The notes beneath the pieces were generated by a model. It saw nothing but the letters and a program-made list of their open reading frames with translations. It was not told where the DNA came from and searched no databases. A DNA stretch of 64,000 bases. Origin: Amphibalanus amphitrite. Taxonomy: Eukaryota > Arthropoda > Thecostraca > Balanomorpha > Balanidae. Where the stretch lies: contig NW_024883086.1 in the NCBI RefSeq assembly GCF_019059575.1, positions 1 through 64,000 of the forward strand, in the 5' to 3' direction. Position 1 is the stretch's first letter; every line of letters begins with the position of its first letter. Below are positions 24,231 through 61,492 of the stretch, piece after piece. The translations under genes and the position numbers were made by a program.

Positions 24231-24441
24231 CTGGAAAGCAAGGAACAAGCCGGGGTTAACCGTTAAACACACGTTCATTGACTGGCAGATCCAGGGGGAT
24301 ATTGAAGGGGGGATATAAGGGGCGCTTAGGACAGAGTCCAAAAGGGTTAGTAAAATAATTTTCCAAATATTCAGCAAAATTAACATTATTAGCGATGACC
24401 TTACGTCTGGGGCGTTCCACGACAAATCGACAAATAAAAAA

Positions 24442-25398
24442 TTAACCCTCGCACGACCAGGCCATTTCTCATAACACGAACGACCAGGGGGGGGGGGGAA
24501 GGGGTTGTTACGACCCCCCCTGGCGTTTCGAAACGGAAGGTCGTAGAGCTTAGCGGAAAAAACCAACGGATTGCTCTCAACGAGATCTCGCGATTGGTGG
24601 TATATTTTTTGGTCCTAGGTCAACATTTGACCTACTTATGACCGGTCAAAGGTCAAATTTTCCGAAAAAATCAAACTTTTTCAACTTTGCGCAACGATTG
24701 CGGCAAAACGGTGAGAGATATTAACTTCAAACCTTCAACAACGTATTCCCCACTCAATTCTGCATCATATATGGTGTTTTTCACTTCTCACTTTTCACTT
24801 TCACTTCTCAGAAATGGCGGCGTACGCTGTACCACATATGACGTCATAACTCCGTGACCTGACCTGACCCGGTCAAGTTTCTTGCACCACACGATGGCCA
24901 ATACTTGCCCCAACATGCATGGGAAGTTTCATGACGATCCATCAAACAATGTGGATAGCATCAGCAGAAAACCTCGGGACTCGGTACACACTTCGTGAAA
25001 ATCCGGCCGGAGGCTGTACCTCTTATGACGTCATAACTCCGTGACCTGACCTGACCCGGTCAATTTTCTTGCACCACACGATAGCCAATGCTTGCCCCAA
25101 CATGCATGGGAAGTTTCATCATGATCCATCAAACAATGTGGGTATCACCGGCAGAAAACCTAGGGATTCGGCGCACATGTTTGGTAACTGTCGGCCGGAG
25201 GCTGTACCTCTTATGACGTCATAACTCCGTGACCTGACATGACCCGATCAATTTTTTTTCGGCAAAAGATGCGCAAAGGTTGCCCCAGAGGGTATTGAAA
25301 ATTTCAGCCCGCTACGACAAGCCGTTTAGCGTGCACTTCGAAAAAACCTCAGGGGGGGGGGGTTGATACAACCCCCCCCCTAGGCGTTCTAGGGTTAA
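24442..25398. mobile_element. TTAA-flanked element F2 (G/C-hairpin family)
   Basis: TTAA at 24442-24445 and 25395-25398 flank termini beginning CCCTCGCACGACC on the left and CCCTAGAACGCCTAGGGG (inward) on the right, which are imperfect inverted repeats. G-run/C-run hairpins lie inside both ends (about 24486-24530 and 25352-25380). The interior carries many TGACCT motifs and a ~187-bp direct repeat. No transposase. Confidence 0.65.
24838..25260. repeat. ~187-bp tandem repeat inside F2
   Basis: A block starting ATGACGTCATAACTCCGTGA occurs at 24838, 25025 and about 25213. The first two full units share the CTTGCACCACACGAT, AACATGCATGGGAAG and GATCCATCAAACAATGTGG segments. The third unit is truncated. 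Confidence 0.85.
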
Positions 25399-25779
25399 AT
25401 TTGCACCCTCATATTTTATTTTTCGTTGAAAACTGGTGTAAGGGGTTGTGATGGGCGGGGAAGCCAGCTGTGGCAAGGATTTTTTTCTCCGAACAACGGT
25501 TTCCGAGATATAGCCTCGGGCAATTCCTGGAGGTCGCGCTGCAGCTCTATGTTTGGCGGCCTATAACTAAAAAACTATTGGTTTTCTACGACAAAAACTT
25601 TATATGGTTCAACTCACAATCAGACGACAAACATTTTGGCTATCTCGTATTTTCATTTTTCGAAAATTTTGATCACGTGACCTTTTGACCTATTTTTCGA
25701 AGAGTGACCTTGATATTTTCCCCACTGAAAGTTGCAATTTTGTCTGATGACGATTAAAGCCTTATCGATTGTCACTCAT

Positions 25780-26530
25780 ATGCGAAAATAAAAAAAGTGG
25801 ATATCGCCCTGCGTTGACCTCAGGTCAGGTCATTTTTATGACCTGTCCATTATTACGAGCAGGAGCGACAGTGAGATCTCGAGAATAAATCAAGATAGCG
25901 ACAAGCGGTAAGCGTTGCAGGGTACAAACGGATAAGGTCTATAATTTTAACTGAGGTCATTTTCAGGTCAGGTCAAAGATGACGTCACAGGAGCAAAAAG
26001 GAAGTCAAAATTGCGGCACTACATATATATGAAGTTTTTCTCGAATAACTTTCAAGGTATCCCAGCTAGGAACAAACCAATAGCACCATCGTGATCCTCT
26101 CGTCGATCCGCATCGAAACATATGTATGTTGACCTCGAAAGGTCGAAAGGTCAAAAGTTGACCTTAGGTCACGTGACGAGCGGGAGCGACAGCGAGATCT
26201 CGAGAATAAAGCAAGATAGCGACAAGCGGTAAACGGTGCAGGGTACACACGGATAAGGTCTATAATTTTTACACAGGTCATTTTCAGGTCAGGTCAAAGA
26301 TGACGTCACAGGAGCAAAAAGGAAGTCGAAATTGCGGCACTACATATATATGAAGTTTTTCTCGAATAACTTTCAAGGTGTCCCAGCTAGGAACAAACTA
26401 ATAGCACCATCGTGATCCTCTCGTCGATCCGCATCGAAAGATATGTATGTTGACCTCGAAAGGTCGAAAGGTCAAAAGTTGACCTAAGGTCACGTGACCT
26501 AAGGGCACTTGTCGATTTGCAGGGCACTTG
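25780..26530. repeat. 321-bp tandem duplication, TGACCT-rich module
   Basis: Two direct copies offset by 321 bp (about 25858-26178 and 26179-26500) are ~95% alike. They share GAGATCTCGAGAATAAA, AGATAGCGACAAGCGGTAA, AAAGATGACGTCACAGGAGC and TTCTCGAATAACTTTCAAGG. Related text appears inverted at about 35905-36070 and in part at 33950, so this module belongs to the TTAA/G-hairpin family even though no poly-G ends are found here. Confidence 0.8.
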
Positions 26531-26954
26531 TCGATTTGTCGTGGAACGTCTGAATCCACATCGAGCTCTGTCAGTGGCAATCACATCGACGTCAGTTCAA
26601 TTTAGCAGCAACATGTCAAGGTTTTGGTCTAGATTTAGGGCTTTCCACAAAAATATAGAAATAGACTAGTGCCGAGTTATCTGTGAAAAAGTGACTCTTG
26701 TTCATTGCTCATGTAGGGAAGGAAATCAATGATCCAATATATATATTTTTTTTAATCAACGCCTCCTTTTGTCCAGTTAGAACTTAAATCATAAAGAGCT
26801 TCACTTGGATAGCGTGTTTTTATGCTTATAAAATGTCAGTCCTATCTTTTCAAACTAACTTGACGCACTCCTTTCCCCATATCTTCCGGTAATACGAAGT
26901 CATACGCGCTACAATGAAAGCCTTTCTGCATACCTAAACGTTTTCTTGTGCATA
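26531..26954. other. No recognised feature
   Basis: AT-rich intergenic sequence without recognised repeats or coding frames. Confidence 0.35.
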
Positions 26955-45607: not shown

Positions 45608-46747
45608 TCACGCGTTTTTGCACCTAAGTTTTTTCCTGAATTCTTTTTCTGACGCTGTTTGTGTAGTTTCTATTGGAAGTCGATTCCATTCAGTTGCGGC
45701 TCGGTACGGGAAAGATCGTTGTGTAATAGACAGACGCACTTTTGGAAGGTGGAGCCGATTGGTACATGCCAGGCGGGTCACTCGAGTGGTTATGTCTGAT
45801 CTTTGGTGAAACATCCTTTTTAGAGCTTTGGGGGCGTCGCAGTTATTCAAAGCGCGAAATACTTTTAAACAATCACGCTCCTTGATGAGCTCTTCAATTG
45901 TTGGCCACTGAAGCGCACTTAGGATGGGTGTGATGTGCTCATGGCGGCGTGTTCCGGTTACTACACGGGCTGCGAAGTTTATTACTTTCTGAACGCGAGA
46001 TATTTGGTTTTTGCAGGCCCCACCCCAAACTGGCAAGCAGTACAATATCTGGGAAAAGACGTGTGCCTGGATAATCAGAATAAGAGCCTCAGCAGAAAAG
46101 TGACGCCGGAACCTGTTTAAGGACGATAGAATAGAGTAGCAGCGTCGTAAAACTTCTGTAATGTGTTTTTGCCAGGATAACGTTTGGTCTATTTTCACTC
46201 CCAATACTTTAATGTTGTCTGAAGGTTCAAGCGAACTTTCACAGAAGTCAAGTTTGAAATCAGAGACTCTCTGCAAAGCTGATGATGTGCCGATTAGAAT
46301 GAAATCAGTTTTGGCTACGTTCATTTTAAATGAGTTGGTAGTGAACCATGTCTGCACTGAGGCCATTGAAGATTCCAAACGCCTTTTGAACTGGATGAGA
46401 CTTTCGCTGTCTGTCGGCGAGCTGTCCAAAAGCTGAGTGTCATCTGCATAGCATATAACGCGGCCATGAGGTATACAATTTGGTAGGTCAGCTGTGACTA
46501 GACTGAAGAGAACAGGTCCCAGGATTGATCCTTGTGGGACACCGAATTTCACGGGAAGAACCTCAGAACCACCTCGAACCATTTGACCACGACCGCTCAG
46601 ATAACTTTTGAACCAGTGTGATGGGACGCCGTGCCACGCTAGTTTCATCAAAAGAATTTCATGATTGACGCTGTCGAACGCTTTGCTCAGGTCTATTGCT
46701 GTTATTGAAGCAATATGGCCCCTATCGATTTGATCAGTAGTCCAGGC
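45608..46747 (-). CDS. Reverse transcriptase, C-terminal two-thirds (CR1/L2-type LINE)
   Basis: About 380 codons on the minus strand, open to a stop at the 45608 end. Motifs in order: AIDLSKAFDSVNHEILL (RT domain A), FGVPQGSILGPVLFSL (domain B), CYADDTQLL (catalytic YADD box), NVAKTDFI (domain D) and KVLGVKIDQTLSWQKHI (domain E). The thumb and C-terminal region typical of CR1/L2-like LINEs follow, with FRKKLRCKNA at the end. The catalytic residues appear intact. The missing N-terminal part lies at 55111-55710 beyond the insertion. A 3' untranslated region of ~360 bp follows. Confidence 0.9.
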   Translation of the reverse strand, partial: AWTTDQIDRGHIASITAIDLSKAFDSVNHEILLMKLAWHGVPSHWFKSYLSGRGQMVRGGSEVLPVKFGVPQGSILGPVLFSLVTADLPNCIPHGRVICYADDTQLLDSSPTDSESLIQFKRRLESSMASVQTWFTTNSFKMNVAKTDFILIGTSSALQRVSDFKLDFCESSLEPSDNIKVLGVKIDQTLSWQKHITEVLRRCYSILSSLNRFRRHFSAEALILIIQAHVFSQILYCLPVWGGACKNQISRVQKVINFAARVVTGTRRHEHITPILSALQWPTIEELIKERDCLKVFRALNNCDAPKALKRMFHQRSDITTRVTRLACTNRLHLPKVRLSITQRSFPYRAATEWNRLPIETTQTASEKEFRKKLRCKNA

Positions 46748-46748
46748 C

Positions 46749-47432
46749 AGGCCAGGCCAGCGTTATACCGACTGTGAATTCTTGCAGAGGCAGTTAGATG
46801 AGCTATGTTACTGGTCACGGAAGTGGGGCCTAACACTGAATCCTGCTAAATGTAAGATCTTGACTCTTTCTCTGCGACGTCACCCAGTAACATTTGCATA
46901 TACCATAGGAGGCGCAGCACTTGAAAGAGTCAGTGAAATGCGCGATTTGGGTGTTATCTTGGATGAAAAACTGACGTTTGGCAGCGAGATCGATCGTGTT
47001 GTTCGCCAAGCTAATAGAGCATTAGGGCTCCTAATCAGGTCCTTCCAAACAGGAAAGCATGGAAGATCGCTGTATCGTTGTGATTACAGAGCTATCATCC
47101 GCACATATTGTGCCAATGTAAGGCCTATCTTGGAATACGGCAGCGTTATCTGGGGAGGAGCTGCGGCCACCCATCTAAATCGCCTCGAACGTGTACAGAC
47201 GAAATTTCTTATGTGGCTTTGTGGTCGATGTCGTATTGCCGATGCGCAACTTAACTCTGCTAACCTTTCGAAACATTTTCATCTGATGTCTCTGGCTGCA
47301 CGGCGGCAGCAGCACGACCTGATGTTTATCCGGAATATTCACAGACAGGACATCGATTCGGCTTACCTGCTAAACAGCATGCCTCTATGTATACCACCTC
47401 GCTCATTGCGCCAGCGCAACCTGTTCCATGTA
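46749..47432 (+). CDS. Reverse transcriptase thumb/C-terminal region of Jockey-type LINE (part 1)
   Basis: About 228 open codons starting inside the protein just downstream of where the catalytic FADD/YADD box should be, so the copy is dead on arrival. Visible motifs are CYWSRKWGLTLNPAKCKIL (domain D region), MRDLGVILDEKLTF (domain E) and the C-terminal VRPILEYGSVIWGG and ERVQTKFL segments. The frame reaches LRQRNLFHV, then enters the inserted element and stops within a few codons. The natural continuation is at 54807-54974. Confidence 0.85.
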
Positions 47433-47579
47433 ACGTTCATCAATTGAGCAGCAGATTGATATTCGCGAATATCAAACTAAAAATTCGATATTCGGACGGG
47501 GAACGCAATAACTCAAGAACCAGTGAACCGATTTTGATGAAAATGCCCTCATTCGATTCCTCGTTCCTTATTGCAGGTT

Positions 47580-50500
47580 GACAGCGATTTCCAGGTCACA
47601 AGGTCATAACCTTCAAGGTCAAGGTCAAGGTCAAAGGACGGGGAACGCTCTACAGCCTAAAGTTCCCGTCCGATTGGCTTGTAAATGGTCTCAATCGATT
47701 CCTCGACCCCGATTCCAGGTTGACAGCGATTTCCAGGTCACTAGGTCATGACCTTCAAGGTCAAGGTCAAGGTCAAAGGACGGGGAACGCTCTACAGCCT
47801 AAAGTTACCGTCCGATTGGCTTATAAATGGTCTCAATCGATTCCTCGACCCCGATTCAAGGTTGACAGCGATTTCCAGGTCACTAGGTCATGACCTTCAA
47901 GGTCAAGGTCAAGGTCAAAGGACGGGGAACGCTCTACAGCCTAAAGTTACCGTCCGATTGGCTTGTTAATGGTCTCAATCGATTCCTCGACCCCGATTCC
48001 AGGTTGACAGCGATTTCCAGGTCACTAGGTCATGACCTTCAAGGTCAAGGTCAAGGTCAAAGGACGGGGAACGCTCTACAGCCTAAAGTTACCGTCCGAT
48101 TGGCTTGTTAATGGTCTCAATCGATTCCTCGACCCCGATTCCAGGTTGACAGCGATTTTCAGGTCACTAGGTCATGACCTTCAAGGTCAAGGTCAAGGTC
48201 AAAGGACGGGGAACGCTCTACAGCCTAAAGTTACCGTCCGATTGGCTTGTTAATGGTCTCAATCGATTCCTCGACCCCGATTCCAGGTTGACAGCGATTT
48301 CAAGGTCACTAGGTCATGACCTTCAAGGTCAAGGTCAAGGTCAAAGGACGGGGAACGCTCTACAGCCTAAAGTTACCGTCCGATTGGCTTGTTAATGGTC
48401 TCAATCGATTCCTCGACCCCGATTCCAGGTTGACAGCGATTTCCAGGTCACTAGGTCATGACCTTCAAGGTCAAGGTCAAGGTCAAAGGACGGGGAACGC
48501 TCTACAGCCTAAAGTTACCGTCCGATTGGCTTGTAAATGGTCTCAATCGATTCCTCGACCCCGATTCCAGGTTGACAGCGATTTCCAGGTCACTAGGTCA
48601 TGACCTTCAAGGTCAAGGTCAAGGTCAAAGGACGGGGAACGCTCTACAGGCTAAAGTTACCGTCCGATTGGCTTGTAAATGGTCTCAATCGATTCCTCGA
48701 CCCCGATTCCAGGTTGACAGCGATTTCCAGGTCACTAGGTCATGACCTTCGAGGTCAAGGTCAAGGTCAAAGGACGGGGAACGCTCTACAACCTAAAGTT
48801 ACCGTCCGATTGGCTTGTTAATGGTCTCAATCGATTCCTCGACCCCGATTCCAGGTTGACAGCGATTTCCAGGTCACTAGGTCATGACCTTCAAGGTCAA
48901 GGTCAAGGTCAAAGGACGGGGAACGCTCTACAGCCTAAAGTTACCGTCCGATTGGCTTGTTAATGGTCTCAATCGATTCCTCGACCCCGATTCCAGGTTG
49001 ACAGCGATTTCCAGGTCACTAGGTCATGACCTTCAAGGTCAAGGTCAAGGTCAAAGGACGGGGAACGCTCTACAGCCTAAAGTTACCGTCCGATTGGCTT
49101 ATAAATGGTCTCAATCGATTCCTCGACCCCGATTCCAGGTAGACAGCGATTTCCAGGTCACTAGGTCATGACCTTCAAGGTCAAGGCCAAGGTCAAAGGA
49201 TGGGGAACGCTCTACAGCCTAAAGTTACCGTCCGATTGGCTTGCTAATGGTCTCAATCGATTCCTCGACCCCGATTCCAGGTTGACAGCGATTTCCAGGT
49301 CACTAGGTCATGACCTTCAAGGTCAAGGTCAAGGTCAAAGGACGGGGAACGCTCTACAGCCTAAAGTTACCGTCCGATTGGCTTGTTAATGGTCTCAATC
49401 GATTCCTCGACCCCGATTCCAGGTTGACAGCGATTTCCAGGTCACTAGGTCATGACCTTCAAGGTCAAGGTCAAGGCCAAAGGACGGGGAACGCTCTACA
49501 GCCTAAAGTTATCTTCCGATTAGCTTGTAAATGGTCTCAATCGATTCCTCGACCCCGATTCCAGGTTGACAGCGATTTCCAGGTCACTAGATCATGACCT
49601 TCAAGGTCAAGGTCAAGGTCAAAGGACGGGGAACGCTCTACAGCCTAAAGTTACCGTCCGATTGGCTTATAAATGGTCTCAATCGATTCCTCGACCCCGA
49701 TTCCAGGTTGACAGCGATTTCCAGGTCACTAGGTCATGAACTTCAAGGTCAAGGTCAAGGTCAAAGGACGGGGAACGCTCTACAGCCTAAAGTTACCGTC
49801 CGATTGGCTTGTAAATGGTCTCAATCGATTCCTCGACCCCAATTCCAGGCTGACAGCGATTTCCAGGTCACTAGGTCATGACCTTCAAGGTCAAGGTCAA
49901 GGTTCGCGAATATCAAACTAAAAATTCGATATTCGGACGGGGAACGCAATAACTCAAGAACCAGTGAACCGACTTTGATGAAAAGACCCTCATTCGATTC
50001 CTCGTTCCTCATTGCAGGTTGACAGCGATTTCCAGGTCACTAGGTCATGACCTTCAAGGTCAAGGTCAAGGTCAAAGGACGGGGAACGCTCTACAGCCTA
50101 AAGTTACCGTCCGATTGGCTTATAAATGGTCTCAATCGATTCCTCGACCCCGATTCCAGGTTGACAGCGATTTTCAGGTCACTAGGTCATGACCTTCAAG
50201 GTCAAGGTCAAGGTCAAAGGACGGGGAACGCTCTACAGCCTAAAGTTACCGTCCGATTGGCTTGTTAATGGTCTCAATCGATTCCTCGACCCCGATTCCA
50301 GGTTGACAGCGATTTCAAGGTCACTAGGTCATGACCTTTAAGGTCAAGGTCAAGGTCAAAGGACGGGGAACGCTCTACAGCCTAAAGTTACCGTCCGATT
50401 GGCTTGTTAATGGTCTCAATCGATTCCTCGACCCCGATTCCAGGTTGACAGCGATTTCCAGGTCACTAGGTCATGACCTTCAAGGTCAAGGTCAAGGTCA

Positions 50501-52840
50501 AAGGACGGGGAACGCTCTACAGCCTAAAGTTACCGTCCGATTGGCTTGTAAATGGTCTCAATCGATTCCTCGACCCCGATTCCACGTTGACAGCGATTTC
50601 CAGGTCACTAGGTCATGACCTTCAAGGTCAAGGTCAAGGTCAAAGGACGGGGAACGCTCTACAGCCTAAAGTTACCGTCCGATTGGCTTGTAAATGGTCT
50701 CAATCGATTCCTCGACCCCGATTCAAGGTTGACAGCGATTTCCAGGTCACTAGGTCATGACCTTCAAGGTCAAGGTCAAGGTCAAAGGACGGGGAACGCT
50801 CTACAGCCTAAAGTTACCGTCCGATTGGCTTGTAAATGGTCTCAATCGATTCCTCGACCCCAATTCCAGGTTGACAGCGATTTCCAGGTCACTAGGTCAT
50901 GACCTTCAAGGTCAAGGTCAAGGTTCGCGAATATCAAACTAAAAATTCGATATTCGGACGGGGAACGCAATAACTCAAGAACCAGTGAACCGATTTTGAT
51001 GAAAAGACCCTCATTCGATTCCTCGTTCCTCATTGCAGGTTGACAGCGATTTCCAGGTCACTAGGTCATGACCTTCAAGGTCAAGGTCAAGGTCAAAGGA
51101 CGGGGAACGCTCTACAGGCTAAAGTTACCGTCCGATTGGCTTGTAAATGGTCTCAATCGATTCCTCGACCCCGATTCCAGGTTGACAGCGATTTCCAGGT
51201 CACTAGGTCATGACCTTCAAGGTCAAGGTCAAGGTTCGCGAATATCAAACTAAAAATTCGATATTCGGACGGGGAACGCAATAACTCAAGAACCAGTGAA
51301 CCGATTTTGATGAAAAGACCCTCATTCGATTCCTCGTTCCTCATTGCAGGTTGACAGCGATTTCCAGGTCACTAGGTCATGACCTTCAAGGTCAAGGTCA
51401 AGGTCAAAGGACGGGGAACGCTCTACAGGCTAAAGTTACCGTCCGATTGGCTTGTAAATGGTCTCAATCGATTCCTCGACCCCGATTCCAGGTTGACAGC
51501 GATTTCCAGGTCACTAGGTCATGACCTTCGAGGTCAAGGTCAAGGTCAAAGGACGGGGAACGCTCTACAACCTAAAGTTACCGTCCGATTGGCTTGTTAA
51601 TGGTCTCAATCGATTCCTCGACCCCGATTCCAGGTTGACAGCGATTTCCAGGTCACTAGGTCATGACCTTCAAGGTCAAGGTCAAGGTCAAAGGACGGGG
51701 AACGCTCTACAACCTAAAGTTACCGTCCGATTAGCTTGTAAATGGTCTCAATCGATTCCTCGACCCCGATTCCAGGTTGACAGCGATTTCCAGGTCACTA
51801 GGTCATGACCTTCAAGGTCAAGGTCAAGGTCAAAGGACGGGGAACGCTCTACAGCCTAAAGTTACCGTCCGATTGGCTTATAAATGGTCTCAATCGATTC
51901 CTCGACCCCGATTCCAGGTTGACAGCGATTTCCAGGTCACTAGGTCATGACCTTCAAGGTCAAGGTCAAGGTTCGCGAATATCAAACTAAAAATTCGATA
52001 TTCGGACGGGGAACGCAATAACTCAAGAACCAGTGAACCCATTTTGATGAAAAGACCCTCATTCGATTCCTCGTTCCTCATTGCAGGTTGACAGCGATTT
52101 CCAGGTCACTAGGTCATGACCTTCAAGGTCAAGGTCAAGGTCAAAGGACGGGGAACGCTCTACAGGCTCAAGTTACCGTCCGATTGGCTTGTAAATGGTC
52201 TCAATCGATTCCTCGACCCCGATTCCAGGTTGACAGCGATTTCCAGGTCACTAGGTCATGACCTTCAAGGTCAAGGTCAAAGGACGGGGAACGCTCTACA
52301 ACCTAAAGTTACCGTCCGATTGGCTTGCTAATGGTCTCAATCGATTCCTCGACCCCGATTCCAGGTTGACAGCGATTTCCAGGTCACTAGGTCATGACCT
52401 TCAAGGTCAAGGTCAAGGTCAAAGGACGGGGAACGCTCTACAGCCTAAAGTTACCGTCCGATTAGCTTGTAAATGGTCTCAATCGATTCCTCGACCCCGA
52501 TTCCAGGTTGACAGCGATTTCCAGGTCACTAGGTCATGACCTTCAAGGTCAAGGTCAAGGTCAAAGGACGGGGAACGCTCTACAGCCTAAAGTTACCGTC
52601 CGATTGGCTTGTAAATGGTCTCAATCGATTCCTTGACCCCGATTCCAGGTTGACAGCGATTTCCAGGTCACTATGTCATGACCTTCAAGGTCAAGGTAAA
52701 GTTCAAAGGACGGGGAACGCTCTACAGCGTAAAGTTACCGTCCGATTGGCTTGTAAATGGTCTCAATCGATTCCCCGACCCCGATTCCTGATTGACTGCG
52801 ATTTCTAGGTCACTAGGTCATGACCTTCATGGTCATTTTC
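47580..52840 (+). repeat. 142-bp satellite array, left arm
   Basis: About 32 copies of a 142-bp unit (A), with four interspersed 169-bp variant units (B) at about 49902, 50923, 51233 and 51972 and a terminal B copy at 47460-47610. One A unit is shortened by 6 bp (52258). Each A unit contains AGGTCACTAGGTCATGACCT and then three AAGGTCA copies. Apparent 60-95-residue frames recur every 142 bp in rotating frames (142 is not a multiple of 3) and are not genes. Confidence 0.95.
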
Positions 52841-53030
52841 ATTAACAGCAGATTCGCGACCTTGTCATGACCTTGAAGGTCATGACCTAGTGACCTGGAA
52901 ATCGCTGTCAACCTGGAATCGGGGTCGAGGAATCGATTGATGCCATTTACAAGCCAATCGGGTGGTAACTTTAGGCTGTAGAGCGTTCCCCTTCATTGAC
53001 CTTGTATTCGCGAATCTGTTAATGTAAATG
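52841..53030. repeat. Central inversion junction of the satellite element
   Basis: CATTAACAGCAGATTCGCGA (about 52842) and its near-inverse ATTCGCGAATCTGTTAATG (about 53007-53025) bracket one reverse-oriented, damaged A unit. Repeats to the left run forward and those to the right run in reverse. The bracketing text resembles the terminal AGCAGATTGATATTCGCGA motif of the element. Confidence 0.75.
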
Positions 53031-54660
53031 ACCTTGAAGGTCATGACCTAGTGACCTAGAAATCGCTGTCGACCTGGAATCGGGGTCGGGGAATCGATTG
53101 AGACCATTTACAAGCCAATATGACGGTAACTTTAGGCTGTAGAGCGTTCCCCGTCCTTTGATTTTGACCTTGACCTTGAAGGTCATGACCTAGTGACCTG
53201 GAAATCGCTGTCAACCTGGTATCGGGGTCGGGGAATCGATTGAGACCATTTACAAGCCAATCGGACGGTAACTTTAGGCTGTAGAGCGTTCCCCGTCCTT
53301 TGACCTTGACCTTGACTTTGAAGGTCATGACCTAGTGACCTGGAAATCGCTGTCAACCTGGAATCGGGGTCGAGGAATCGATTGAGACCATTTACAAGCC
53401 AATCAGATGGTAACTTTAGGCTGTAGAGCGTTCCCCGTCCTTTGACCTTGACCTTGACCTTGAAGGTCATGACCTAGTGACCTGGAAATCGCTGTCAACC
53501 TGCAATAAGGAACGAGGAATCGAATGAGGACATTTTCATCAAAATCGGTTCACTGGTTCTTGAGTTATTGCGTTCCCCGTCCGAATATCGAATTTTTAGT
53601 TTGATATTCGCGAACCTTGACCTTGACCTTGAAGGTCATGACCTAGTGACCTGGAAATCGCTGTCAACCTGGAATTGGGGTCGAGGAATCGATTGAGACC
53701 ATTTACAAGCCAATCGGACGGTAACTTTAGGCTGTAGAGCGTTCCCCGTCCTTTGACCTTGACCTTGACCTTGAAAGTCATGACCTAGTGACCTGGAAAT
53801 CGCTGTCAACCTGGAATCGGGGTCGAGGAATCGATTGAGACCATTTACAAGCCAATCGGACGGTAACTTTAGGCTGTAGAGCGTTCCCCGTCCTTTGACC
53901 TTGACCTTGACCTTGAAGGTCATGACCTAGTGACCTGGAAATCGCTGTCACCCTGGAATCGGGGTCGAGGAATCGATTGAGACCATTTACAAGCCAATCG
54001 GACGGTAACTTTAGGCTGTAGAGCGTTCCCCGTCCTTTGACCTTGACCTTGACCTTGAAGGTCATGACCTAGTGACCTGGAAATCGCTGTCACCCTGGAA
54101 TCGGGGTCGAGGAATCGATTGAGACCATTTACAAGCCAATCGGACGGTAACTTTAGGCTGTAGAGCGTTCCCCGTCCTTTGACCTTGACCTTGACCTTGA
54201 AGGTCATGACCTAGTGACCTGGAAATCGCTGTCAACCTGGAATCGGTGTCGAGGAATCGATTGAGACCATTAACAAGCCAATCGGACGGTAACTTTAGGC
54301 TGTAGAGCGTTCCCCGTCCTTTGACCTTGACCTTGACCTTGAAGGTCATGACCTAGTGACCTGGAAATCGCTGTCAACCTGAAATCGGGGTCGAGGAATC
54401 GATTGAGACCATTAACAAGCCAATCGGACGGTAACTTTAGGCTGTAGAGCGTTCCCCGTCCTTTGACCTTGACCTTGACCTTGAAGGTCATGACCTAGTG
54501 ACCTGGAAATCGCTGTCAACCTGGAATCGGGGTCGAGGAATCGATTGAGACCATTTACAAGCCAATCGGACGGTAACTTTAGGCTGTAGAGCGTTCCCCG
54601 TCCTTTGACCTTGACCTTGACCTTGAAGATCATGACCTAGTGACCTGGAAATCGCTGTCA
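53031..54660 (-). repeat. 142-bp satellite array, right arm (inverted)
   Basis: About 10-11 A units plus B-type units at about 53500-53615 and 54655-54780, all in the orientation opposite to the left arm. The right arm is ~1.8 kb against ~5.4 kb on the left, so the two arms have changed copy number independently. Confidence 0.95.
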
Positions 54661-54806
54661 ACCTGCAATAAGGAACGAGGAATCGAATGAGGGCATTTTC
54701 ATCAAAATCGGTTCACTGGTTCTTGAGTTATTGCGTTCCCCGTCCGAATATCGAATTTTTAGTTTGATATTCGCGAATATCAATCTGCTGCTCAATTGAT
54801 GGACGT

Positions 54807-54974
54807 TTCCATGTACCGTACGCGCGGGTGACCACTGTTAAGCAGGGACTATTTTGTCGCATTCCGCGAACGTGCAACACATTTCTTAACGAGCAGCGTG
54901 AGGCAGACGTTTGGCACCTGAGCGCCCTGCAGTGGAAGAAACTGGTCGTGGCATATTGTCGAATGCATTGCTGA
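54807..54974 (+). CDS. C-terminal end of the Jockey-type LINE ORF (part 2)
   Basis: 55 codons from the restored FHV to TGA at 54972-54974. The segment FHVPYARVTTVKQGLFCRIP continues directly from LRQRNLFHV at 47432 when the 7.4-kb element and one 9-bp copy are removed. The final residues are ...YCRMHC. This continuity is the best proof that 47433-54806 is an insertion. Confidence 0.85.
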   Translation, partial: FHVPYARVTTVKQGLFCRIPRTCNTFLNEQREADVWHLSALQWKKLVVAYCRMHC

Positions 54975-55110
54975 TCCATTTTAGTGTATGTATCTTATTA
55001 TGTGTATTTTTAACCCATTTTAACTTGTTGTCTGAAATGTGTACTTCACTCGTCAATGGGCCCACCATATCCCGTGAGTGTTTATGTAATAAACTAAACT
55101 AAACTAAACA

Positions 55111-55710
55111 GGCAATGGTCTCGAGGATGGCGTCTTCCGTTGAATGGCCCTTGCGGTAAGCGTACTGGCTGTTACCTAGTAAATCATTTTCTTTGAGATA
55201 GTGGGTTAATTGGGTGCACACGACACGCTCAGCGATTTTCGACATGACTGGCAGAAGTGAAATTGGACGATAGTTGCTAGCGCGACTGTGATCACCATTC
55301 TTATGTAAAGGAACTACACACGCTATTTTCCACTTTTCTGGAAATATGCCGCTTGATATTGAAGTGTTAATGATATGAAGGAGCAGCGGACCGATCACAG
55401 CAAAACAACGACGAATGGCCAGGATGGGGACTCCATCCAGTCCGACAGCTTTCGAATTGCTCATCAGACGCACCGCTGTTGACAGCTCAGGTAGAGTAGC
55501 GGGCTGAAGCTCAAAGCTTGTGGCACACACCACAGGGGGACGTATCTGGGGATCGACATACGTGTCATCCTGTCTGCGAGGTAAGAGTTCTGCTGCAATG
55601 TTAGAGCCTACATTCGCAAAATACGCATTAAACATGTCGGCCTGTTTTGAATCAAGGTTGCTATCTAGACAGTTGCCGCTCGTGTTTTTTACATACTGAT
55701 TAAACTTCGA
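55111..55710 (-). CDS. Reverse transcriptase, N-terminal part (CR1/L2-type LINE)
   Basis: About 200 open codons on the minus strand, bounded by a stop at 55711-55713. Motifs include SNSKAVGLDGVPI (an equivalent of the K..G.DgI motif), WKIACVVPLHKNGDHSRASN, NYRPISLLPVMSKIAERVV (domain 1) and AYRKGHSTEDAILETIA (domain 2). These match the canonical start of LINE reverse transcriptases. The endonuclease domain is missing, so the element is 5'-truncated near 55710. Confidence 0.9.
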
Positions 55711-57427: not shown

Positions 57428-57870
57428 TAGTGTCATGCGGGGCAGCTGATGTGGATAGCGCAGGTGTAGTTACCTACCACCTACCTTGGTTGTTTTCTCT
57501 TTTGGCGGAAACACGGTCTCAACTTCCCCTCCTCGCTCGCCCAGGTGTCTGTGTCTGCCGATTCCTTCTTGCGTAGCTGAAAGACGCCTCCACCCCACCC
57601 ACCTGGACACCACCTGCCGACCTCCACCTGTACACAGACGCCTCCACCCTGGGCTTTGGCGGCTGCTGCGACGGCGCTTGGTTCTCATACATCCTTTTGG
57701 CGGTCCTTTGGCGTCTTTCAGCTACGCAAGAAGGAATCGGCAGACACAGACACCTGGGCGAGCGAGGAGGGGAAGTTGAGACCGTGTTTCCGCCAAAAGA
57801 GAAAACAACCAAGGTAGGTGGTAGGTAACTACACCTGCGCTATCCACATCAGCTGCCCCGCATGACACTA
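57428..57870. mobile_element. Foldback element E1 with TA target, carrying a retroelement RNase H fragment
   Basis: The element is 57430-57868, with TA on each side (57428-57429 and 57869-57870). The ~155-bp arms (GTGTCATGCGGGGCAGCTG and complement) are nearly identical. The ~130-bp loop carries a coding fragment. TA duplications suit the Tc1/mariner/pogo group, but a TA alone is weak evidence. Confidence 0.65.
57616..57723 (+). pseudogene. Fragment of a retrotransposon RNase H domain in the E1 loop
   Basis: Plus-strand codons read ADLHLYTDASTLGFGGC and then GAWFSYI. The YTDAS.LG.G pattern is the start of the RNase H domain of reverse-transcribing retroelements, with the first catalytic Asp in TDAS, and WF follows as in DIRS/Ngaro-like and LTR elements. 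Only ~35 residues remain before the frame runs into the right foldback arm. It is a captured fragment without function of its own. Confidence 0.6.
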
Positions 57871-58424
57871 ATGGGACCGTATTAGAGCCGGCGATAATCA
57901 CGGAACATTAGTGTCGGGGCAGACTGCGGCGGGGCAGACTGCGGCGGGGCAGACTGCGGCGACCCCTAGGAAGAACAACTAGGGAGAACAACATGCGACA
58001 GAGCATGTTACCACGACAATGGAAGAATGTAGTGTAGTACCCCTCCCCGGGCCCGCCGCGGGCTGGCAGCGGCGGCCGGAGCCGGTCCGACCGACCTTTA
58101 GCCGGCCGGGTCAGGTAACCGGGACGGCCGCGCCGCAGCGCCGCGCCCGGGCCGGCCGGGAGACGGAGTCGGGTGCCCGCCGGCGAGCCGTCGGCAAGGG
58201 CGCGGGGCACATTAGTCGAGTTGAATGTTCACTGTTCAGTTTTGAGTGCGAGTGATGTATGTGTGAATCGATATGTGAGCAGCAAAATCCAACAAGAAAA
58301 CAAAATCCGTGAAAGAAAGGCAACGCTGGCAAACATCACCACCATAGTCTTCCTACGCCGAACAGGTTCCACACCAACTAGCATCAGCGAGAGTAAAACT
58401 AGGATCCTAACAGTGTGGGGCCAT

Positions 58425-59760
58425 CGCAGACAGCCGTCCATGTCTGCAGGTGAGGCTATCGCGGACAGCCACGCACGTCTGCAGGTGAGACTATCGCGGA
58501 CAGCCGTGCATGTCGGCATGTGAGGCTATCGTGGACAGCCTGACGTGTTACAATGTGGGGCCATCGCGGACAGCCGTCCATGTCTGCAGGTGAGGCTATC
58601 GCGGACAGCCGAGCACGTCTGCAGGTGAGACTATCGCGGACAGCCGTGCATGTCGGAATGTGAGGCTATCGCGGACAGCCGTGCCTTTTTTAGGTGAGGC
58701 TATCGCGGACAGCCGTGCACGTCTGCAGGTGAGACTATCGCGGACAGCTGTGCATGTTTGCAGGTGAGGCTATCGCGGACAGCCGTGCTTTTTTCTAGCT
58801 CCGCTATTGCGGACAGCCGTGCATGTCTGGAGGCGAGGTCTCGGACAGCCTTGCATGTATGTAGGTAGGGCTATCGCGGACAGCCTGACGTGTCACAATG
58901 TGAGGCCATCGCGGACAGCCGGCCATGTCTGCAGGTGAGGCTATCGCGGACAACCGTGCCTTTTTTAGGTGAGGCTATCGCGGACAGCCTGACGTGTCAC
59001 AATGTGGGGCCAACGCGGACAGCCGTCCATGTCTGCAGGTGAGGCTAACGCGGACAGCCGTGCATGTCTGCAGGTGAGGCTATCGCGGACAGCCGTGCCT
59101 GTTTGTAGGTGAGGCTATCGCGGACAGCCTGACGGGTTACAATGTGGGGCCATCGCGGACAGCCGTCCATGTCTGCAGGTGAGGCTATCGCGGACAGCCG
59201 CGCCTTTTTGTAGGTGAGGCTATCGCGGACAGCCGGACGTTACAATGTGGGGCCATCGCGGACAGCCGGCCATGTCTGCAGGTGAGGCCATCGCGGACAG
59301 CCGTGCATGTCTGCAGGTGAGGCTATCGCGGACAGCCGTGCCTTTTTGTAGGTGAGGCTATCGCGGACAGCCTGACGTGTTACAATGTGGGGCCGTCGCG
59401 GACAGCCGTTCATGTCTGCAGGTGAGGCTATCGCGGACAGCCACGCACGTCTGCAGGTGAGACTATCGCGGACAGCTGTGTATGTCGGCATGTGAGGCTA
59501 TTGCGGACAGCCGTCCATGTCTGCAGGTGAGGCTATCGCGGACAGCCGCGCACGTCTGCAGGACAGCCGTGCATGTCTGCAGGTGAGGCTATCGCGGACA
59601 GCCGTGCACGTCTGCAGGTGAGACTATCGCGGACAGCCGTGCATGTCGGTATGTGAGGCTATCGCGGACAGCCGTGCATGTCTGCAGGTGAGGCTATCGC
59701 GGACATCCGTGCCGTGCATGTGTGTAGATGCAGCTATCACAAACAGCCCTTGATGTCTGT
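58425..59760. repeat. ~35-bp minisatellite (GTGAGGCTATCGCGGACAGC units)
   Basis: About 38 imperfect units built of GAGGCTATCGCGGACAGCC plus GTGCATGTCTGCAG or CTGACGTGTTACAATGTGG variants. The variants alternate, which suggests amplification of multi-unit blocks. Spacing and strand composition are not CRISPR-like: there are no unique spacers. Confidence 0.9.
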
Positions 59761-60967
59761 AGGGGAGTCTAAGTGGACAGGTGAGGGAATGGGACAAGGC
59801 CACTACTGCAAACAGGCGCCGCCGGAGGCGGTGTCTGCCGACCTTTATTATTTCTCAGCCTTGGCGCCGGGTCGGAAATGCATCTTTGCGTCACAGTCTG
59901 GCGCTGCCAACTGGTGTCAGGTAGGTGCGCGTTCCGTGTAGGTATACGGTCGGTGGACAGGCCCATGGCAGCAATGCAGCATAGGAGCAGGCATACGTGC
60001 ATCCACAGAGTGGCACATTGCCAGCAGTGACCTGACCCCCAGTCGGTCCGCTGCAGACCGGTGCAAGGCAACACCCCCGATCAACGGCAGTCCGACCGCC
60101 GGCCACAGGCCCGTCACGGCCTTGTCAAGGGCAGCTGACGTCACGCCGGATGAGTCACCCGGCCGCCCCCCGGTGCGGAGGACGGTCAAGTGTCACACGC
60201 CCGCGCCTGCGCCGCTGGCAACCACGTGACCATCAGTAGCTATCGTTGCTGCCGCCGCCCGCGGCGCTACCAGCGTTGGAAATGCCACCTAGAGCTGACG
60301 TCACGATCACGCAATGGCTGGTCGGACCCGCCAAGATGGCGTCAGGGCGACAGGGCATTGGGCGTAGGCCATGGACATCAATACTGATGCCAGGCAAGCA
60401 AAGAGTATATAGGGCTAAAAATGCATGGCAGGCTAAGAACGTCAATGACTGGGGCCAGGCAAGCAATGACATGGGTGGAAAGAACCATTGTAGGTACGGA
60501 AGAGGAGGTCATCCTGGTTGGCCGGGCACAAGATAAATGTACAGAAAGTCACAGGTTCATACACTGAGCAAATCACACCGGAGTGAGCTGCTCCCCAGGC
60601 ACATTGCAGGTGGTGAGACACCTGATTGCAGTCAGTGTAGGGCTCGTTATGGTCAGTAATGTGGCGCACGGCGCCCGGCCTCGGCTAGGGGGGGGGGGCG
60701 ATGGGGGCAAACTCTTATCATGTATGCTATATTGAATCGCCGTTAGCGATCACATGAGTGAGTAAGGTGCAAGTGGCAATCACCACCGGCGTGTTATGGG
60801 ACGCGGCGAGGAACGGGCGAGACAAAATGGCGCCCGGCGCCGGGGGGGGGGTAATCTCCCCATGCACGCGGTGAAAGCCGTCGACAGACCTAGCTAGGTA
60901 GCAGGGAATGTCCAGTAACATACCTGCAGTTTTTCGCCGGCGAGGGGCCATCGCGACCACAGTAGTA
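59761..60967. other. GC-rich unique core of E2
   Basis: CpG-containing sequence with promoter-type motifs (TGACGTCA near 60296, CCAAGATGGCGTC near 60331) and a G run near 60688. No exon with both splice borders was found. Confidence 0.35.
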
Positions 60968-61492
60968 TCCTAGTTTTACTCTCGCTGATGCTAGTTGGTG
61001 TGGAACCTGTTCGGCGTAGGAAGACTATGGTGGTGATGTTTGCCAGCGTTGCCTTTCTTTCACGGATTTTGTTTTCTTGTTGGATTTTGCTGCTCACATA
61101 TCGATTCACACATACATACATCACTCGCACTCAAAACTGAACAGTGAACATTCAACTCGACTAATGTGCCCCGCGCCCTTGCCGACGGCTCGCCGGCGGG
61201 CACCCGACTCCGTCTCCCGGCCGGCCCGGGCGCGGCGCTGCGGCGCGGCCGTCCCGGTTACCTGACCCGGCCGGCTAAAGGTCGGTCGGACCGGCTCCAG
61301 CCGCCGCTGCCAGCCCGCGGCGGGCCCGGGGAGGGGTACTACACTACATTCTTCCATTGTCGTGGTAACATGCTCTGTCGCATGTTGTTCTCCCTAGTTG
61401 TTCTTCCTAGGGGTCGCCGCAGTCTGCCCCGCCGCAGTCTGCCCCGACACTAATGTTCCGTGATTATCGCCGGCTCTAATACGGTCCCATTA

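Follow-up and report, generated by a model that had tools for sequence, protein, structure and literature searches.

Foldback elements with tandemly repeated arms

The closest relative in print of the element described here appears to be Tetris of Drosophila virilis, and such elements, including Tetris, Tm1 and Galileo, are already known. Tetris is a foldback element with TIR-220 tandem repeats (PMC4079207, drawn on here and below in part). Like the element in our window (the whole 64,000-nucleotide stretch of Amphibalanus amphitrite DNA that was analysed), it is non-autonomous, has no transposase in the portion of its description used here, makes 8–10-bp target duplications, carries within its terminal inverted repeats tandem repeats similar to the terminal domain that flanks them, and has grown long arrays (up to 66 copies) inside the element (PMC4079207). 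Tetris has three structurally complete copies, whereas here there are 35 facing pairs of termini, with 19 copies read; its terminal repeats reach 1.7 kb, compared with arms of up to about 6 kb here; and it possesses a middle domain, of which the present element has almost none, and a flanking domain reaching 866 bp, where here about 30 bp of terminal sequence precede the first unit (PMC4079207). The Tetris authors suggested that larger arrays may have disrupted transposition, but here long arrays stand at sites with intact duplications (PMC4079207). The window element is notable for its scale and freshness.

The FB elements of Drosophila, for which the partner FB-NOF is known, have inverted arms of tandem repeats and 9-bp duplications as here, with different repeat units. 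Helitrons and Helentrons are a different element class and are not known to have target duplications or terminal inverted repeats of this kind, whereas the window element has both 9-bp duplications and inverted termini. The Helentron-borne arrays of Crassostrea gigas resemble it, according to part of their description, in being satellite-like arrays dispersed within a mobile element (PMC7492417). Rehavkus, as excerpted, combines 9-bp duplications with a minisatellite in a MULE-related element; there the minisatellite precedes the 3' end of an element that has coding sequence, whereas here the repeats occupy both arms and there is no long open frame (PMC6446971). Tm1, a Mutator/foldback element of root-knot nematodes, likewise has composite terminal repeats that vary in length and include tandem repeats, and 8–10-bp duplications that are mostly 9-bp; it differs in its 14-bp repeats and in having a copy with a transposase, and the portion of the account used describes elements of about 1–2.6 kb and no large arrays (PMC3169594). 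Galileo, of the P superfamily, has long, internally repeated terminal repeats with unequal unit numbers at the two ends of a copy, and its tandem units contain additional transposase-binding sites; it differs in its P-type transposase, and its F subfamily has two or three ~210 bp units per terminal repeat, compared with 4–40 per arm here (PMC3573991 and PMC3688188, both in part).

The element and its insertion site

The 7.4-kb stretch detailed in Table 1 is a real foldback-type mobile element, made up almost wholly of two facing satellite-like arrays. The initial annotation had given it inverted termini of ~41 bp with one mismatch; the ends are indeed inverted, but their length was understated. 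They pair with one mismatch over the first 167 bp and five over the first 260 bp, and inverted repeats of 1.2–1.7 kb at 96–98% extend through the arms. As annotated, a 142/169-bp tandem repeat runs through nearly the whole interior, with no step larger than 215 bp between unit matches. The units lie in the + orientation up to about 52830 and in the − orientation from about 53030, an inversion that is absent from the initial annotation. The conserved termini of the family are ACGTCCATCAATTGAGCAGCAGATTGATATTCGCGAATATC. Scans of the window for tRNA and Rfam families gave no matches.

Table 1. Positions of the element, its parts and the interrupted frame in the window.
Feature	Positions	Strand	Remarks
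LINE-like frame, 5' part, interrupted	46734–47432	+	
Target duplication, left copy, 9 bp	47424–47432	.	TTCCATGTA; flanks joined at a single copy match six LINE-like paralogues
Foldback element, 7,374 bp	47433–54806	.	longest open frame within is 103 aa
Left terminal 115 bp	47433–47547	+	terminus and first 169-type sequence; used to compare ends across copies
16-bp palindrome	47458–47473		GATATTCGCGAATATC; inside left terminal 115 bp
Left arm	47433–52830	+	tandem 142-bp units with 169-bp units interspersed
Internal 169-bp unit (example)	49903–50071	+	repeats subterminal end sequence TTCGCGAATATCAAACTAAAAATTCGATATTCGG
Further internal 169-bp units	starts near 50924, 51235, 51972	+	
Turn-around	52831–53032	.	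short inverted segments (CATTTTCATTAACAGCAGATTCGCGA and near mirror) flanking one inverted unit
Right arm	53033–54806	-	left-arm units, inverted
Further internal 169-bp unit	about 53446–53614	-	
Right terminal 115 bp	54692–54806	-	inverted
Target duplication, right copy, 9 bp	54807–54815	.	TTCCATGTA
LINE-like frame, 3' continuation	54816–54974	+	up to stop

The element precisely interrupted a pre-existing sequence. The perfect 9-bp target duplication reported for it is present at both borders and occurs nowhere else on either strand of the window. The claim that a LINE-like frame reads through once the element is removed also holds, as the open frame is 285 aa long when the flanks are joined at one copy of the duplication, compared with 237 aa when interrupted. 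Two things underlie the LINE label: the repetition of the frame in the genome, and an RVT_1 match that stays below threshold (E 0.0082; 16.3 bits, where the cut-off is 29.6). At six other genomic places the frame is uninterrupted over all 300 joined bases at 99–100%. Over 668 bases the flanking frame matches its nearest sisters at 99% (as rounded by the tool), a divergence of ~1%. Uninterrupted sites were found for other copies as well: the target site of L010 in the flank of L026 (119/120) and, less exactly, in that of L011, and the target site of L018 in the flank of L024, with more changes.

Copies elsewhere and the source of the transposase

A genome search with the element end had been set in advance as a test, with termini confined to this one locus, or other copies devoid of target duplications, counting against transposition. 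A 39-bp query beginning 5 bp inside the end gave 92 matches at up to 3 mismatches in the 807.6-Mb genome (64 of them exact), and a control gave 0. Chance can be dismissed on these counts, and because the joined flanks are uninterrupted at six places. Seventy of the termini form 35 inward-facing pairs spanning 2.6–20.7 kb; the other 22 have no partner within 25 kb. Exact searches for the ends in viral and prokaryote contigs gave 0 matches.

Twenty elements were examined, namely the window copy and 19 fetched ones. The fully read copies came from the best 40 of 260 candidate matches to the first 100 bases of the window element and are therefore biased towards young ones. Both ends were present in 19 of the 20, one of them completed with L055; in L028, about 20 kb of sequence contains no right end. 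All 19 complete copies have target duplications: 15 are exactly 9 bp, and in the other four, L011, L015, L021 and L025, they are shorter or imperfect (two of 8 bp, one of 7–8 bp and one with a 1-base indel). Neither of the outcomes set in advance as counting against transposition was observed. In 17 of the 19 the two copies of the duplication are identical. The 36 ends of 18 copies differ on average by 1.57 bases of 115. Every complete copy mapped by unit (18/18) has a single switch from a + to a − array. As in foldbacks generally, long terminal inverted repeats make up much of each mapped copy, and the arms contain tandem subrepeats whose number varies between arms and copies. Among the irregular cases, unit matches in L016 are interrupted for 1,022 bp, and L050–L052 have divergent ends without a recognised partner.

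With foldback copies at dozens of other sites, the window array most likely arrived by transposition. The family provides a well-replicated case in which DNA transposition explains dispersed satellite-like arrays, complete with exact target duplications and with sites found uninterrupted elsewhere. We read it, with a probability of roughly 0.9, as a foldback DNA transposon that is non-autonomous and that a Mutator-like (MULE) transposase most likely mobilised in trans. Since neither a MULE profile search nor a 22-bp end search allowing different interiors found a transposase for the family, the superfamily assignment comes from duplication length, which is within the 8–10 bp of Mutator-like elements, and from architecture; it is the 9-bp duplication together with the foldback form that points to a Mutator-like source. 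There were at least 111 MULE-domain matches (best 150 of 204 candidates scored), none inside an element; among the matches listed, the one closest to a terminus lies 3.4 kb beyond it, on C1453. The pair C44, with ends 17.3 kb apart, was a promising candidate for an autonomous copy, but the part read contains the array and the beginning of an apparent piggyBac-type frame, judged by eye.

The transposase may instead belong to another superfamily leaving 8–9-bp duplications, of which Merlin is one candidate and a P-element relative like that of Galileo another. The failure to find a MULE domain alongside these ends would suit such a source, which we consider possible but doubtful, because the duplications are exactly 9 bp in 15 of 19 copies, because most foldbacks seem Mutator-related according to the part of the Tetris paper drawn on (PMC4079207), and because a Mutator-type transposase is encoded by Tm1, which also makes 9-bp duplications (PMC3169594, in part).

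Origin and remodelling of the arrays

The 169-bp unit is a repeat of the element's own subterminal sequence. There are 1,303 unit matches in the genome, 685 of them in loci chosen by their termini. Of the 1,303, 100 were listed with their places, and each of these is either enclosed by a terminal pair or no more than 5 kb from a terminus; no free arrays without termini were seen among these 100. Because the unit repeats subterminal sequence and no free arrays were seen among the places located, the element is probably a foldback transposon with end-related tandem arms, not a satellite that gained ends. The initial annotation's mobile satellite bounded by terminal inverted repeats is supported as to mobility, with a change in its framing.

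We propose that a transposase would bind the terminus and the subterminal block, that this block was duplicated in tandem to give the 169-bp units, and that these may have drifted to give the 142-bp unit. Arrays would then grow and shrink within each copy through unequal exchange or slippage, with partial copying between the two arms, and each new insertion would take the current arrays to a new site. As transposition would carry the arrays on and exchange would remodel them, the repeat would be dispersed by the former and remodelled locally by the latter. The family would also allow asking whether extra end-like units aid mobility.

Transposition of the whole palindrome is supported by a centre common to six sites. 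Six places carry this 40-bp centre, four of them exactly and two with a single mismatch; it occurs in both orientations, always between paired termini, and four of the six copies were read. Its recurrence indicates that the palindrome spreads as a unit, which supports the annotated transposition of the array as a single element, though copies differ in how many units they have and in what order. The centre-sharing copies differ in array length (3.7, 6.2, 8.5 and 11.6 kb), and collinearity outward from the centre is convincing for 1–3 units only. Exact unit runs common to different copies average 0.44, compared with 0.43 in shuffled arrays, and the longest is 3; the long collinear arrays expected in this comparison were not seen. 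Long arrays are thus not transmitted unchanged, and array length and unit order change fast. Across copies the terminus and turn-around are nearly unchanged, while unit order is lost within a few units. Having 35 facing pairs with near-identical ends and different arrays would allow measuring tandem-array change per transposition.

Remodelling is also visible within copies. An 11-unit block is present twice in L027, and one unit variant has three genomic occurrences, all in the window copy. Copying from arm to arm is indicated by mirrored windows of the two arms, identical in 17% of same-copy comparisons versus 3.8% of different-copy ones; in a permutation test the mean mismatch gave P 0.007, and register length was not significant (P 0.188).

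It is also conceivable that what inserted was a short terminal-repeat element whose array lengthened later in place, so that the long array itself never moved. The unequal lengths around a common centre, the block duplications and private variants, and a facing pair of termini only 618 bp apart (C13) would fit such growth, and the unchanged duplications (17/19) are too short to date insertions against 2–3% unit divergence. Dating by exact duplications was in fact rejected as circular, the exact ones having been chosen, and 9 bp each cannot separate 0% from 2–3%. We nevertheless consider growth in place improbable. Unit divergence is 2.9% within copies and 3.3% between them (481 units), unlike growth from one or a few units; the window-copy units differ among themselves by 2.36%, more than the divergence of about 1% in the flanking frame, so that much of the array's diversity appears to be older than the insertion; and both arms were already in all 18 mapped copies.

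Under our preferred reading, transposition of the arrays, an array several kilobases long would be able to travel with the element. We venture further, and only tentatively, that the satellite-like family owes its whole genomic distribution to one transposon family, that transposition or the ensuing gap repair re-sizes the arrays, and that copies of up to 11.6 kb are still mobile. If true, the mobility of copies of that length, which were fully read, would be contrary to the suggestion made for Tetris.

A conventional satellite that had spread through unequal exchange, and whose inverted junctions were incidental, would account for the tandem 142/169-bp organisation and for block duplications, which are typical of such exchange, but is hardly credible given 9-bp duplications with uninterrupted sites, 35 facing pairs of conserved ends and the confinement of the listed unit places to the vicinity of termini. 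Chimeric fold-back reads could have given false palindromes in assembly, as the head-to-head form of all 18 mapped copies might suggest, but this is extremely unlikely since the two flanks differ and join to independently assembled uninterrupted sites, the arms are unequal in length, and one centre is common to six places.

Large near-palindromes at dozens of places are likely to be sites of genome rearrangement. The turn-around of the window copy had been considered as a unique one common to L014, which was ruled out when its 25-mer CATTTTCATTAACAGCAGATTCGCGA was found 31 times on 10 contigs, all terminus-bearing; it is a third unit type, not a lineage mark.

The foldback element in the window

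The 9-bp target duplication claimed in the initial annotation, TTCCATGTA, is present at both edges of the window element. The inverted termini had been put at about 41 bp, but they do not stop there. Paired, the two ends have 1 mismatch over their first 167 bp and 5 over their first 260 bp, and the element consists of two arrays inverted relative to each other, its arms carrying inverted repeats as long as 1,683 bp (96–98% identity). Such an architecture is the hallmark of foldback elements.

Insertion into a LINE-like frame is borne out: flanks joined at one copy of the duplication leave 285 aa open, as against 237 aa with the insertion in place. The sole library match of this frame is to RVT_1 (E 0.0082), and since this falls under the curated cut-off, the LINE label rests on that match together with the repetition of the sequence in the genome. 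Elsewhere in the genome the uninterrupted target is present six times, aligning with the joined flanks along their full 300 bases at 99–100%, and these six places are 97–99% identical to the window left flank across 668 bases. One opposite-strand reverse-transcriptase fragment lies on each side of the frame, which makes this region a nest of retroelements.

Features of the window element, its surroundings and other inverted-end structures
Feature	Position	Details
Target duplication TTCCATGTA	47424-47432 and 54807-54815	two copies bounding 7,374 bp
142-bp arrays	47541-52835 and 53029-54698	Tandem Repeats Finder
Unit anchors	47576 to 52792 (+); 54663 down to 52911 (-)	
Reverse-transcriptase fragment	45608-46762 (-)	E 2.1e-24
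Reverse-transcriptase fragment	55099-55710 (-)	E 1e-06, just under cut-off
Element-like structure	57869-61492	inverted ends 57869-58409 and 60963-61492, roughly 530-540 bp, 99-100%
35-bp tandem array	58415-59712	within the 57869-61492 structure
Second array-bearing structure	24413-26548	perfect 21-bp inverted ends CGTTCCACGACAAATCGACAA

Copies of the family in the genome

The initial annotation proposed searching the genome with the element end and with the repeat unit. In the 807.55-Mb assembly (2,644 contigs, the window included), a 39-bp terminus query starting 5 bp inside the end, with up to 3 mismatches allowed, gave 92 matches, 64 of them without mismatch, and the control gave 0. With partners required to lie within 25 kb of each other, these form 35 inward-facing pairs of length 2.6–20.7 kb (median 5.6 kb); 22 of the 92 are partnerless at that distance. 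We examined 20 elements, the window element and 19 other loci, which lean young, having been picked from the top-scoring matches to the window element's end. Both ends lie within the retrieved stretch in 18; the copy on contig C1612 has both once a 601-base adjoining piece is added, and in locus L028 the right end was looked for and is absent within about 20 kb. Elsewhere, two ends face each other at C13:1947723-1948340 with a spacing of only 618 bp, which may be a short copy of the family. In L052 (C663:82785-92784) two diverged ends point the same way at a distance of 6.7 kb and may come from an older related family.

Target duplications accompany the other copies as well. They are exact 9-bp repeats in 15 of the 19 complete copies, 8 bp in L015 and L025, 7–8 bp in L011, and 9 bp with a one-base indel in L021. 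The two copies of the duplication are identical in 17 of the 19, although they are too short to weigh much on array timing. The L010 target occurs without an insertion in sequence flanking L026 on the right (119/120 bases), and again in that flanking L011 on the left, there with small indels and a single mismatch within the duplication. The L018 target, with more changes, likewise occurs without an insertion in sequence flanking L024 on the right. L021 (on C159) and the C1612 copy (near 97558 and 107225) are opposite-orientation insertions two bases apart in what, read by eye, is nearly the same target word, TTATAGAGTTCAGTG, which may reflect a repeat common to both sites or preferential targeting.

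A + array followed by a - array with a single switch is found in 18/18 copies mapped by unit, with 20 to 80 units each. The largest step between unit matches is at most 330 bp in 17 of them, the exception being one 1,022-bp step in L016. Stop-to-stop open frames reach a maximum of 96–181 aa, depending on the copy. By eye, the subterminal sequence TTCGCGAATATCAAACTAAAAATTCGATATTCGG of the end is repeated in the 169-bp unit, with which the 142-bp unit has its GGACGGGGAACGC start and a CGATTCCTCG...GTTGACAGCGATTTCC part in common. The element end also contains a perfect 16-bp palindrome, GATATTCGCGAATATC. The relation of end to unit is of the same kind as in Tetris, whose flanking domain is described as resembling its repeat (37 bp at about 80%; PMC4079207). 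In Galileo, transposase-binding sites are reported inside tandem units of the terminal repeats (PMC3688188), and the units here are putative transposase-binding sites.

A 46-bp query taken from the 142-bp unit has 1,303 genomic matches, 653 forward and 650 reverse. Among the 100 listed, on C4, C13, C20, C28, C33, C44 and C48, every one is enclosed by paired termini or has a terminus no more than 5 kb away, and it is likely that all arrays of the repeat sit in elements. A separate count found 685 unit matches inside the examined loci, themselves selected by termini.

Probable transmission and remodelling of the arrays

L015, L025, L019 and L026 have a 40-bp centre in common, in opposite orientations. 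Genome-wide it has six occurrences, four of them exact and two differing at one base; the ones on C346 and C75 are known by coordinates only. Every one is inside a terminal pair, so the palindrome spreads as one piece. The original claim that the array transposed as a unit is supported for the palindrome as a whole; the order and number of units are not kept. The four read members of this lineage range from 3.7 to 11.6 kb.

Simple unchanged transmission is opposed by exact unit runs between copies no longer than in shuffled arrays, and by alignment outward from the common centre that convinces over one to three units only. Array growth after insertion should give more uniform units than are seen. 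Unit divergence (481 units) is 2.9% within a copy and 3.3% between copies, with means per copy of 1.8–6.8%, and the window element, at 2.36%, has units more diverged than its flanking frame, whose closest sister sequences differ from it by about 1% (99% identity, rounded). The divergence of the units is suggestive evidence against such growth, not decisive.

The best reading is whole-palindrome transposition with rapid remodelling inside copies, partly between arms. An 11-unit block is present twice in L027, with similar duplications in L015 and L019, and one unit variant has three genomic occurrences, all within the window element. At mirrored arm positions, identical windows make up 17% in the same copy versus 3.8% in different copies; by mean mismatch the arms of one copy are more alike (P 0.007, 1,000 permutations), and register length is not significant (P 0.188).

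Relationship to other foldback elements

That foldback elements can have arms of tandem repeats, and that they are linked to satellites, is established already (PMC4079207, PMC3169594, PMC3573991, PMC6446971, PMC12628747, PMC3688188, PMC13359780). In the literature searched, we met no family with this many complete copies bearing several-kb arrays on both arms. For Tetris, its authors raise the possibility that transposition was disrupted by larger arrays (PMC4079207). The present copies argue against this holding in general, provided that their arrays did not grow after insertion.

Assignment to the Mutator-like (MULE) superfamily is drawn from the 9-bp duplication, from the statement that foldbacks mostly seem to belong to Mutator (PMC4079207, Discussion) and from the Mutator-type transposase described for Tm1 (PMC3169594). 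The foldback form is also reported in the P superfamily, in Galileo (PMC3573991). None of at least 111 genomic MULE-domain matches (150 of 204 candidates scored) falls inside an element; the closest of those listed lies 3.4 kb beyond a terminus on C1453, followed by one 7.8 kb away from the C1612 element. Relaxing the end query to 22 bp gave 97 matches and turned up no further element containing a MULE match. The MULE population of this genome is large and varied, with at least 14 of the matches in uninterrupted open frames of at least 450 aa.

Two other structures in the window have inverted ends. That at 57869-61492 has no 6–12-bp duplication beside its ends. The ends of that at 24413-26548 enclose 187-bp and 321-bp tandem repeats, and ACGTCTG occurs near both ends, not flush with them.
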